This document shows, in pieces, positions 2,982-17,626 of a DNA stretch of 64,000 nt. The DNA is from Fimbriimonadaceae bacterium (GTDB lineage: Bacteria > Armatimonadota > Fimbriimonadia > Fimbriimonadales > Fimbriimonadaceae). Position 1 is the stretch's first letter. Each line of letters begins with the position of its first letter. The notes under the pieces were generated by a model that saw only the letters and a program-made list of their open reading frames with translations, made no database searches and was not told where the DNA came from. A program made the position numbers and the translations under genes. Where the stretch lies: assembly GCA_019638675.1 (NCBI GenBank), contig JAHBTE010000001.1:342605-406604 (forward strand). The letters run 5' to 3'.

Positions 2982-4579
2982 GACCAATTCTTGTCGGCAT
3001 GGCGATCCTGTTTGGATGCTTGGCTCAGGCGCAAAACAAGCGAATTCTCCTCATCCCCGTGGATGACCGTCCGGCTGTGACCCACTTTGCTCAAATGATT
3101 GGCAACATTGCCGACGTTGAGGTCGTCACTCCGCCAACCCCTTTCCTCGGAAAGTTCAAACAACCTGGTTCGCCTGATTCGATTTTGTTGTGGTTGAAGG
3201 GGCAGGACTTATCGCAGTACGACGCCGTCGTTTTGAGTGCAGATATGATCGCCTACGGAGGATTGATCGCCTCCCGCACCGACCGATCTTCCCAAAACCT
3301 TGCGATGAACCGTTTGCGCGAACTTTGGCGCATCCGAAAAACTTCTTATGCAACTCCGTTTTACGTGTTTAGCACCCTCACGCGCATAGCTCCTACCGCT
3401 GTCGCAGAAAACCGAGCTTGGCGCAACGATCTCGCTAACTGGGCGATCAATCAAGAAAAATACGACCTGTACAAAGATCCGGAAGCAAAGCGCAAAGCCG
3501 CGGCGCTCGCCGCCCGAGTGCCAGCCGAAGAACTTGCCCGTTACAAATCAGTTCGGTCACGCAATGTGGCTATCCAAACCGAACTGCTGAAAATGACTTA
3601 CCACGGGGCGTTTAACCACCTCACTTTTGGTCAAGATGATGCCGCCGCAGTTGGCCCGCACATTCGGGAAATCGCTTCCCTCAACCGCGAGGTTGACCGG
3701 CTCAAGCTCGGTAATCGATCCCAGTTCTGCATGGGGATTGACCAGATTTCTAACTGCCTCATCAGCCGTGTGCTGTGCGACCAAGCCAAATGGAATCCCA
3801 CCGTCGCGATCCGATACGCGGATGCCAATGGGCCAAACAAAGTTGCCGCCTACGAAACTGAACCAATTCGTGAATCTCTGCGTGACCAAATCGAAACTTC
3901 CGGCGCGATTGTCACTACCGACCAAGATAAGGCCGATTACATTCTGTTCCTCAACACCCCCGAGCCGAACCAGTATTCGTTTGATGAGTTCGTTCGCGAA
4001 ATGTCGGCCGACATCACCGCCGGCAAACACATCGCCGTAGCCGATACCAATCTCGGCTGGAGCGGAACCGCTGATCCGGCGCTGTTTGCCGCGCTTACCA
4101 AATCTCGCCAAGGCCCTCAACTTGTGAGCTATGCAGGCTGGAACACCGCCGGGAACACGATGGGAACCACGATTCCTGCCGCTAACGCCTATCTACTCGC
4201 CCTTCACACTGGCGTGGATGGTTTGAACCGAGAAACCGCGGCTCGCAAGTTTGTTCTCCACCGTTTGGTTACAGATTATTTCTACAACCGCTACGTGCGA
4301 CCCGAAGCCTATCGCATGATTGAAAAAATGCAAGATGGCAACCGGGAAGAAATTTCGAAAACTGAGGATTACGACATCGTTGCCGAATACGTCAAGAAGG
4401 ATATGGAAGCGCGGCTACGGCAAACGTTCCTTGACCAAATGGTTGCCAATCCTTTCAAAGTAAAGGATCGGATTTATCATGTTGTCCAAGTCAAAGACAT
4501 CGTGGTAGAACTCCCTTGGCCGCGGGCGTACGAGGTTCATTTGGACTTTAACTTAGAGGTTCGGGAGGAGAAGCAGTGA
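2978..4579 (+). CDS. DUF4127 family secreted protein
   Basis: Protein of 533 residues. The GTG start at 2978 is supported by AAGGAG seven bases upstream and by the 4-nt overlap with the VOC gene. A short signal peptide (ILVGMAILFGCLAQAQ) precedes the family opening RILLIPVDDRPAV. Other family-like pieces include ADMIAYGGLIASR and VADTNLGWSGTADPAL, and the C terminus is Trp/Pro-rich (ELPWPRAYEVHLDFN). DUF4127 proteins have no assigned reaction; the layout suggests a periplasmic or secreted enzyme. The gene overlaps the next by 4 nt. Confidence 0.88.
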   Translation: MRPILVGMAILFGCLAQAQNKRILLIPVDDRPAVTHFAQMIGNIADVEVVTPPTPFLGKFKQPGSPDSILLWLKGQDLSQYDAVVLSADMIAYGGLIASRTDRSSQNLAMNRLRELWRIRKTSYATPFYVFSTLTRIAPTAVAENRAWRNDLANWAINQEKYDLYKDPEAKRKAAALAARVPAEELARYKSVRSRNVAIQTELLKMTYHGAFNHLTFGQDDAAAVGPHIREIASLNREVDRLKLGNRSQFCMGIDQISNCLISRVLCDQAKWNPTVAIRYADANGPNKVAAYETEPIRESLRDQIETSGAIVTTDQDKADYILFLNTPEPNQYSFDEFVREMSADITAGKHIAVADTNLGWSGTADPALFAALTKSRQGPQLVSYAGWNTAGNTMGTTIPAANAYLLALHTGVDGLNRETAARKFVLHRLVTDYFYNRYVRPEAYRMIEKMQDGNREEISKTEDYDIVAEYVKKDMEARLRQTFLDQMVANPFKVKDRIYHVVQVKDIVVELPWPRAYEVHLDFNLEVREEKQ

Positions 4580-14201: not shown

Positions 14202-14260
14202 AGCACCTCGCAGTCCTAAGAAATTTGGTCGTAAAGCGTGTCCCTTGTATATTTACAGTA

Positions 14261-14722
14261 ATGGGCATTACTGAAATAGCGTCTCGGTCAACTACGCCAA
14301 TCCGAGCATCTATTAATGATTTTTCGTGGCTGAGTGGCACTTGGCGAGGCATCTGCCGAGGACGTTCCGCCGAAGAAATTTGGTCGGAAAGCAACCACAA
14401 AGCGATGATCGCAGTTTTTCGTACTTTTCAAGATGGTCAACTCCTTTTTTCGGCAATTTATTGGTTAACCGAGTTCGAAGATCGAGTCGAATTAGCAATC
14501 AAGTGTTTTTCTCCGGACTACGTTGGTTGGGATGAAAGAACCGACGCAGGGATTTTCAAACTCGTACACCTCGATGGTCAAAGGGCACTTTTTTACTGCG
14601 ATGAAGTTCCAGAAGGACACTGGATTCACTGCGAACGGATTGGCGACAGCATTCAAGGATATTTCCAAATGGGAGTCACGCCTCCATTGCCGGAGGAAAC
14701 CTTCCACCTTAACTTAGTCTGA
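14261..14722 (+). CDS. DUF6265-like protein, first of a tandem pair
   Basis: Protein of 153 residues from the ATG at 14261; an upstream in-frame start at 14225 adds unconvincing sequence. It carries FSWLSGTWRGICRG, AEEIWSESNHKAMIAVFRTF and IKCFSPDYVGWDER, matching block by block its downstream neighbour and the DUF6265 lipocalin-like fold. No signal peptide is visible from this start, unlike its paralogue. Function is unknown. The two copies have diverged strongly. Confidence 0.75.
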   Translation: MGITEIASRSTTPIRASINDFSWLSGTWRGICRGRSAEEIWSESNHKAMIAVFRTFQDGQLLFSAIYWLTEFEDRVELAIKCFSPDYVGWDERTDAGIFKLVHLDGQRALFYCDEVPEGHWIHCERIGDSIQGYFQMGVTPPLPEETFHLNLV

Positions 14723-14772: not shown

Positions 14773-15255
14773 ATGATCACATTTCTACTGGCGACTATGA
14801 TTGGACAAGACCAGCTCCCGACTACTCCGATTTCCGCCGAGATTGACCAGCTTGCCTTTTTCGCTGGACATTGGCAAGGCACACGGGGAGACGCCTGGGT
14901 GGAAGAATGGTGGAGTGCACCCAAAGACAACATCATGATGGGGTCTTTTCGGATGCATTCCAAAGGCAAACTTGCTTTCTCGGAATCCATCCGCCTGAGC
15001 ATCACAGAAAACTCCGTAGAAATGGGACTAAAACATTTTTCGACCGATTTCACTGGCTGGGAAGAAAAGAACGAAACGACAACCTTTGTGCTGACGGCGG
15101 TCAAACCTAATCAAGCCATCTTCTACCACCCCGACGAAAAAGCGAATTCTTGGATTATCTACACCCGCAAGGGTGATGAAATGACCGCTTCGCTTCAACG
15201 TTCGGCGGATACACCGCCCGAGAGTCAGTTGTTCAAATTCCGGCTCGTGAAATAA
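14773..15255 (+). CDS. DUF6265 family protein, second of a tandem pair
   Basis: Protein of 160 residues with a weak hydrophobic N terminus (ITFLLATMIG) that may be a short signal peptide. The family core is clear: LAFFAGHWQGTRGDAWVEEW, SAPKDNIMMGSFRM and ALKHFSTDFTGWEEK-like sequence. It is probably a small beta-barrel binding protein of unknown ligand. It lies 50 nt after its paralogue and just before the candidate structured RNA. Confidence 0.82.
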   Translation: MITFLLATMIGQDQLPTTPISAEIDQLAFFAGHWQGTRGDAWVEEWWSAPKDNIMMGSFRMHSKGKLAFSESIRLSITENSVEMGLKHFSTDFTGWEEKNETTTFVLTAVKPNQAIFYHPDEKANSWIIYTRKGDEMTASLQRSADTPPESQLFKFRLVK

Positions 15256-15283
15256 ATCCTGCAAAAAATACTAAAGAGCACTT

Positions 15284-15420
15284 GCCCATACCCCGAACAT
15301 AAATCTTGAGCGAAGCACCGGATGCAGCGACATCCAACACACACTAGCTTCGTACTCAGCATCCAGGGAAAAGAAGCTGAAAGAGGGTATGGGCGCTCCA
15401 GAACGGGGCGCCATTTTTTT
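15284..15420 (+). ncRNA. Candidate structured RNA or 5' leader with intrinsic terminator
   Basis: A 10-bp perfect long-range stem pairs 15284-15293 (GCCCATACCC) with 15385-15394 (GGGTATGGGC). Inside, 15307-15316 pairs with 15347-15358 (4+6 bp with a two-base bulge), and 15320-15324 pairs with 15331-15335. An intrinsic terminator follows at 15392-15412, with T7 at 15414-15420. The outer stem and the terminator share bases 15392-15394, so the two compete at their edge. It could be a free small RNA or an attenuator for the methyltransferase starting 18 nt later. It lacks the SRP tetraloop motif and matches no riboswitch consensus I know. Confidence 0.5.
15392..15420 (+). terminator. Intrinsic terminator in front of methyltransferase gene
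   Basis: Eight-pair stem GGCGCTCC / GGGGCGCC (one G-U pair) with loop AGAAC, followed by A and seven T. This is a canonical Rho-independent terminator. It ends either the candidate structured RNA or read-through from the DUF6265 genes. Confidence 0.85.
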
Positions 15421-15437
15421 GTCGGTAATATTTCTTA

Positions 15438-16187
15438 ATGGTCGAGCCAATTCAGAGATTCACCGGGAAGGCGGCGGCTTATTCCAACGGGAGGCCGACT
15501 TATCCTCAAGAATGTCTTAACCAAATCGTTCAAAGAACTGGTCTTGATTCGAGCGCGGTGGTTTTCGATACTGGTGCAGGAACTGGACTGTTCACTCAGC
15601 TTTTACTTGAACACTTTCATCGTGTGAATATTGTCGAACCAAACGACGATATGAGAACCACCGCCGCGCAACGACTCCCAGCAGGCAAAGTAACTTTTAT
15701 AAGAGCCACGGCAGAAAGTTTCCCTGCCCCTGAGAACTCAGTTGACCTCATCACAGCGGCGCAGGCCTTCCATTGGTTTGATCGAGACGCCGTCAAAGCC
15801 CACTGGCGCTCGGTACTTAAACCCACTGGCTATGTTGCCCTTGTTTGGAATGAACGAACCGAATCAACCCCATTTGCTCGAGAATTCACGGCGTTTCTTA
15901 ACCATCTGGCTAATTTGGATCCGAATAATAAGCCACCTACAGAAAGCTCAGATGAAGATATTTTGAACTTCTTTTCCAAAGCTAGAATTGAAACTGCTAC
16001 TCATTCAACCCCTCTCACCGAAGAAGAGCTTATTAACTTAGCGGTTTCTCGCAGTTATTTCCCTTCGCCCAGTCACCCAGAATTTGAGCAATTGAAGCAG
16101 GAAGTCCGAATAATTTTTGAACGCAATGCAGTTAATCAGCATGTGATGTTGCCACACCTCTGCAAATCATTTATTGGTCAGATTTAG
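15438..16187 (+). CDS. Class I SAM-dependent methyltransferase
   Basis: Protein of 249 residues with a UbiE/Methyltransf_11-type Rossmann fold: SAM motif I FDTGAGTGLFTQLL near residue 40, motif II region TAESFPAPENSVDLI and the AQAFHWFDRDA segment typical of trans-aconitate-methyltransferase-like enzymes. The substrate is unknown. The start codon is 18 nt after an intrinsic terminator and no strong Shine-Dalgarno is seen, so expression may depend on read-through or a promoter in the leader. Confidence 0.88.
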   Translation: MVEPIQRFTGKAAAYSNGRPTYPQECLNQIVQRTGLDSSAVVFDTGAGTGLFTQLLLEHFHRVNIVEPNDDMRTTAAQRLPAGKVTFIRATAESFPAPENSVDLITAAQAFHWFDRDAVKAHWRSVLKPTGYVALVWNERTESTPFAREFTAFLNHLANLDPNNKPPTESSDEDILNFFSKARIETATHSTPLTEEELINLAVSRSYFPSPSHPEFEQLKQEVRIIFERNAVNQHVMLPHLCKSFIGQI

Positions 16188-16861: not shown

Positions 16862-17626
16862 ATGCTTCTGCAAGGCAAAAAAGGTGTCGTTCTCAATGTT
16901 ACAAATAGCAATAGCATCGGCTGGGGCGTAGCGGAAGCACTGCATGCGCAAGGAGCCACCGTCGGGATCGGCGCACAAAACGAACGTATGCTTGAAAAAG
17001 TCCTCAAGCTCATAGATGGACGCGAGCGGTTTGAAACCTTCACCTGCGACTTTTCGATGGACGAGGATCTGCAACGTCTTCACGATGACGTTAAGGCAAA
17101 GTTCGGCAAAATTGACTACTTCGTCCACTCCGCCGCATACGCAAAGAAAGAAGACCTTCACGGACGATTCATCGAAACGTCACGCGACGGTTTTTCGCTG
17201 GCAATGGATATTTCAGCTTTTTCACTGATTGCTGCCTGCAAGGCACTCGATCCTCTTTTTAACGATGATGCAAGCGTTGTCACTATGTCGTATTTGGGCT
17301 CGACCCGCACAACCAGTAATTACAACATCATGGGGGTTGCCAAGGCCGCTCTCGAAGCTTCAGTTCGTTATCTTGCGGTTGATCTCGGCGAACGCGGAAT
17401 TCGGGTTAATACTCTTTCTCCTGGGCCGATCAATACTATTTCCGCGCGCGGCGTCCGAGACCTTACCGGAATGCTGAATTTGGTTGAGGAACGCGCTCCA
17501 CTCAAACGCCCATACGGTCAAGAAGAGTGCGGTCTGAGCACCGTTTACCTTGTGAGCGACCTTAGCAAAGGCGTGACTGGGCAAATCCTTTTCGTGGATA
17601 GTGGTTTCAATATCACCGGGTTCTAA
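16862..17626 (+). CDS. fabI: Enoyl-[acyl-carrier-protein] reductase (NADH) FabI
   Basis: Short-chain dehydrogenase of 254 residues with FabI features: the modified nucleotide loop NVTNSNSIGWG, Tyr144 in SYLG, and Tyr154-x6-Lys161 in YNIMGVAK, which match the E. coli FabI Tyr146/Tyr156/Lys163 arrangement. It catalyses the last reduction in each round of fatty acid elongation and is the classic triclosan target. Its stop overlaps the next start codon by one base, an odd coupling to folate/purine genes. Confidence 0.94.
   Translation: MLLQGKKGVVLNVTNSNSIGWGVAEALHAQGATVGIGAQNERMLEKVLKLIDGRERFETFTCDFSMDEDLQRLHDDVKAKFGKIDYFVHSAAYAKKEDLHGRFIETSRDGFSLAMDISAFSLIAACKALDPLFNDDASVVTMSYLGSTRTTSNYNIMGVAKAALEASVRYLAVDLGERGIRVNTLSPGPINTISARGVRDLTGMLNLVEERAPLKRPYGQEECGLSTVYLVSDLSKGVTGQILFVDSGFNITGF

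Follow-up and report, generated by a model that had tools for sequence, protein, structure and literature searches.

In Escherichia coli, the small RNAs (sRNAs) UhpU, MotR, FliX and FlgO depend on sigma-28 and have Hfq as their partner (PMC10578931). In Campylobacter jejuni, the FliA-dependent sRNA CJnc170 (FlmR) and the CjNC1/CjNC4 pair are tied to flagellar genes (PMC11187230, PMC4626219). The sRNAs of this regulon in the two species act, or are predicted to act, on flagellar or related genes (PMC10578931, PMC11187230, PMC4626219). Our literature searches found no sRNA paper for Armatimonadota. Here, we analyzed a stretch of 64,000 nucleotides from a Fimbriimonadaceae bacterium of this phylum (hereafter the window), in which positions 15272-15420 quite likely hold a stand-alone sigma-28-dependent sRNA gene, for which we infer transcription, a start site at about 15308 and a role, probably that of a trans-acting regulator of motility-related mRNAs, from the sequence. 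When compared by description, this gene resembles UhpU, MotR, FliX and FlgO in its predicted dependence on the flagellar sigma factor and in the presence of an encoded Hfq. Whereas the E. coli set derives from mRNA untranslated regions and is reported to be conserved in some Enterobacteriaceae only, the RNA described here has its own gene and promoter and belongs to another phylum. With CJnc170 and CjNC1/CjNC4 it shares, again by description, the nature of a flagellar-sigma sRNA (here predicted), and the phylum differs there too.

The gap that contains the RNA is flanked by a DUF6265 gene (14773-15255) and by a class I methyltransferase gene, whose ATG lies at 15438. The DUF6265 gene adjoins a second one (14225-14722), and in two relatives (G005 and G006) a DUF6265-like small gene stands 3′ of the RNA (1655-2098 in L023/L024). 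As a whole, the stretch folds better than its shuffles (-46.2 kcal/mol, z -4.1). Coordinates of the features are collected in Table 1. The genome of the window is referred to as G000 and its closest, near-identical relative as G003.

Table 1. Features of the predicted sRNA locus and its neighbor, in window positions.
Feature	Position	Strand	Remarks
Sigma-28 (FliA/WhiG) type promoter, predicted	15272..15299	+	-35 TAAAGAGC at 15272-15279, 12-nt spacer, -10 CCCGAACA at 15292-15299
5′ arm of the 10-bp stem of the initial annotation	15284..15293	+	GCCCATACCC, complementary to GGGTATGGGC at 15385-15394; part of the promoter spacer and -10; predicted to be untranscribed
Small RNA gene, predicted ~113 nt	15308..15420	+	Start from promoter spacing, end from terminator
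Hairpin P1	15310..15353	+	Extended here: 15310-15316/15347-15353 plus inner 15320-15324/15331-15335
Hairpin P2	15356..15380	+	Stem TCAGC/GCTGA, loop ATCCAGGGAAAAGAA with conserved AGGGAAA
Purine-rich conserved linker, possible seed	15381..15391	+	AAGAGGGTATG; near-invariant alignment columns
Intrinsic terminator	15392..15420	+	Stem GGCGCTCC (15392-15399)/GGGGCGCC (15405-15412), 7-T run (15414-15420); in all homologues
Class I SAM-dependent methyltransferase (Methyltransf_11)	15438..16187	+	Neighbor, not a conserved partner

Homologues were sought by DNA search and with two covariance models built on the 3′ core. Each of the eight genomes in the genus had a single strong copy, and genera g2, g8, g11, g16, g17, g39 and g42 of the same family had clear ones. 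Altogether, clear homologues occurred in about 18-20 of the 85 genomes of this little-studied family (Fimbriimonadaceae-like, Armatimonadota), one per genome. Further candidates, from genus g5 and a few more, are tentative. The covariance models found nothing convincing outside the family, where one match fell in another family (G197). The sequence pattern turned up in named records of Fimbriimonadaceae and Armatimonadetes, ACE_ARM8 and Uphvl-Ar1 among them; three pattern matches of Clostridia type or in Anaerolineae were without the terminator and the flanking motifs and look like chance. No Rfam 15 family matched the gap or its homologues at the gathering score, and nothing credible appeared at E values up to 10. 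The SRP RNA and tmRNA of this genome are located elsewhere.

Upstream regions were anchored on the start of hairpin P1 and compared. Two conserved blocks, cTAAAga and CCGA, were found in six lineages of the genus at fixed spacing and with no insertions or deletions relative to P1. The consensus score summed over these six lineages was 67 of 96 at the promoter offset, compared with a maximum of 39 over 1999 other offsets. The blocks match the sigma-28 consensus TAAAGTTT-n11-GCCGATAA (PMC2859248), but with a 12-nt spacer. As positive controls in the same genome, motA is preceded by TAAGTATT-N12-GCCGATGA (L199, ~17120-17170, minus strand) and a flagellin gene by TAAAGTTT-N12-GCCAAAGA (L276, ~3940-3975). 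The spacer ahead of flagellin and motA in this genome is one nucleotide longer than the 11-nt spacer of E. coli. A flagellin gene of a relative (G077) has TAAGGCCA-N11-GCCGATAA, with 11 nt, and no good sigma-28 site was found upstream of the second flagellin gene of G000.

The motif was also enriched upstream of the RNA at 16 loci from several genera (Fisher p 6e-12, which is no strict probability since the loci are related). Among the better-scoring loci, most have the -10 octamer ~8 nt before P1, and other genera carry promoter variants. Because good-looking single sites are not rare in the genome (~0.05 sites scoring at least 12/16 per kb and strand), we placed the evidential weight on the fixed position across species. 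Against the assignment, three of the eight positions in the window's own -10 differ from the consensus, and scores are near background at four of the 16 loci (L032, L116, L119 and L038); with a slightly extended upstream region, L032 shows TCAA-N16-GCCAATAG. In terms of its sequence motif, the predicted 5′ end of the RNA thus appears to carry the promoter type of a sigma-28-dependent sRNA. The genome encodes the corresponding FliA/WhiG sigma factor (TIGR02479, 232.8 bits versus a cut-off of 189.6), and its flagellar genes lie in one cluster that ends at csrA.

The part of the locus predicted to be transcribed was conserved in structure as well as in sequence. Between G000 and G003, positions 15280-15395 are 97% identical, compared with 73-82% for the neighboring genes. 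Across homologues the conserved sequence is CCAGGGAAA..AGAAGC..GAAAGAGGGTAT, followed by the GC-rich terminator with its T-run. Most homologues have hairpin P1 at this position, and its arms come in many different sequences. For five lineages with a CG-N-AGA loop, whose arms were defined by the loop and not by pairing, 30 of 30 pairs were standard, whereas re-dealt arms averaged 10.5 and reached at most 24. P1 is longer in this species, and its inner helix has one compensated change relative to G002. For P2, g1 and g2 have the stem TCAGC/GCTGA, and g8, g11 and g17 have CTTGC/GCAAG, which amounts to three compensated pairs in two states only. Five pairs of the terminator stem are changed on both sides. 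The conserved terminator would give the RNA the defined 3′ end of a sigma-28-dependent sRNA, and the lack of a conserved reading frame points to a non-coding product.

The initial annotation had proposed an attenuator or riboswitch, or else a free small RNA, in which a 10-bp outer stem competes with the terminator ahead of the methyltransferase gene. The two inner helices and the terminator that it listed are indeed present, the 3′ strand of the stem and the terminator do share three bases (15392-15394), and the terminator does lie 17-18 nt ahead of the methyltransferase start, a geometry that favors a cis-acting leader steering this gene by terminator versus anti-terminator pairing. We nevertheless consider such a leader improbable. 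The complementarity of the two arms is perfect, but only in G000 and the near-identical G003, and the stem did not hold up as a conserved element. When the upstream region was tested against shuffles for pairing with the 3′ strand, complementarity was significant in G000 (p 0.004) but no better than the shuffles across 17 homologous loci (Fisher p = 0.14), so that no conserved, mutually exclusive anti-terminator stem was found. A three-way junction with the outer stem as its closing helix seemed persuasive on visual inspection of some genus members but failed the same shuffle test. With the start predicted at ~15308, the 5′ arm of the stem would be promoter DNA. Nor is the downstream gene of one class. 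G000, G003 and G001 have a methyltransferase gene at this position, G005 and G006 a small lipocalin/DUF-like gene, G002 the gene for ribosomal protein L25 and G004 that for a 194-aa protein; fabI follows in G008, G014, G022, G068, G071 and G079, and elsewhere there is no shared gene. This variation argues against an attenuator or riboswitch, as do the lack of a long conserved ligand-type core and of any Rfam match. An attenuator of fabI was rejected as well. Although several genera have the RNA immediately before fabI, there is a separate CATAAT-type -10 for fabI past the terminator, and most of the family's fabI loci that were inspected lack the RNA. In many family members, CATAAT or TATAAT lies only ~8-12 nt before the fabI start codon (for example in L035, L038, L069 and L093), which suggests that fabI mRNAs are leaderless or have a very short leader. 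The other option of the initial annotation, a free small RNA, agrees with a conserved promoter and terminator of its own, one copy per genome and differing downstream genes.

Three other explanations were weighed against the stand-alone sRNA gene. The P2 loop carries a CsrA-type site, AGGGA, and the RNA could be a sponge that frees flagellar mRNAs from CsrA. In favor of this reading, g1, g2 and g16 have A(N)GGA within a hairpin loop, and the flagellar cluster ends with csrA. Known CsrB-type RNAs have many CsrA sites. The RNA shares with CsrB/RsmZ an AGGGA hairpin loop and the presence of CsrA, but it has a single such loop rather than several GGA hairpin loops, and the site is lost in g8, g11 and g17, where the loop is AGGGCAAG or AAGGCAAG; we regard a sponge as unlikely, though the least improbable of the alternatives. 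A diverged 6S RNA would account for the fact that 6S was otherwise unfound in this family: 6S (RF00013) was detected in the sister families f2, f3 and f5 and in none of the 85 genomes of f1. Like 6S, the RNA is stand-alone, ~100-200 nt long and present in one copy. It differs in layout, sequence and promoter type, having no long rod and central bubble, while the sister-family 6S RNAs have another sequence and layout, being closed by a long stem and preceded by a promoter of TATAAT type. Moreover, it occurs in only about a quarter of f1, and the RF00013 covariance model did not match it. A 6S identity is therefore very improbable. A 6S model trained on the sister families gave weak matches only when run on f1, and 6S has been either lost or strongly diverged in the window's family (sister-family 6S loci, L143-L151). 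A 19-bit 6S match elsewhere in the genome (L021) had no 6S hallmarks and looks like coding DNA. Finally, a 38-codon frame (MQRHPTHTSF...) runs through the RNA, open in the window from 15322 to just before the methyltransferase start (15322-15437), so that a short mRNA could be imagined. The frame is broken in G005, G006 and G007 by changes in core length that are not multiples of three, its start codon falls within an arm of P1 that is poorly conserved, and sequence changes track the helices and not the codons, which leaves a short mRNA with next to no likelihood. In G003 the frame stays open into the methyltransferase gene.

Taken together, the real conserved features, as judged by sequence comparison, are the predicted sigma-28-type promoter, P1, P2, the AGGGAAA loop, the AGAGGGTAT linker and the terminator. 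In the favored model of a stand-alone sRNA gene, RNA polymerase with FliA/WhiG (sigma-28) would start at ~15308, just before P1, and would stop at the intrinsic terminator ending at 15420, yielding an RNA of ~110 nt. This RNA would consist of two hairpins, the AGGGAAA loop and the AGAGGGUAU linker, and would act in trans on motility-related mRNAs, probably with Hfq, through base pairing, or possibly with CsrA. Hfq was encoded in 23 and CsrA in all of the 25 genomes searched, and both were found in the genome of the window. An Hfq-dependent sRNA could show such features as the U-tail and the two purine-rich stretches conserved in the P2 loop and the linker, and the AGGGA loop would suit CsrA too, in part of the family; together with the U-tail, these unpaired stretches point to regulation of motility-related mRNAs in trans. 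In a weak test, the genus was searched for perfect 11-mer complements of the linker (pattern ATACCCTCTTT), which returned the RNA itself and a few scattered matches with no conserved target. Because of this result, we infer the class of target from the promoter alone. The flagellin 5′ leader (L276) contains TTTTCCTG, which could pair with CAGGGAAAA of the P2 loop with one bulge, a match at chance level by a rough estimate and so no more than a lead.

Judged from its sequence, the RNA is a new family that appears to represent a known kind of system, the sigma-28-dependent sRNA, in a new phylum. The locus also illustrates a general trap, in that one arm of a strong predicted long-range stem can be promoter DNA. 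For genome mining it offers a rule: a sigma-28 promoter a few nucleotides before a hairpin and a terminator within a gap. We lean towards the view that flagellar control in Armatimonadota has an additional, post-transcriptional layer, provided by a so far undescribed family of stand-alone sRNAs that depend on sigma-28. If this is true, such regulation would be widespread well beyond Proteobacteria and Campylobacterota, and a conserved case with its own gene in Armatimonadota suggests that flagellar regulons recruited sRNAs more than once.
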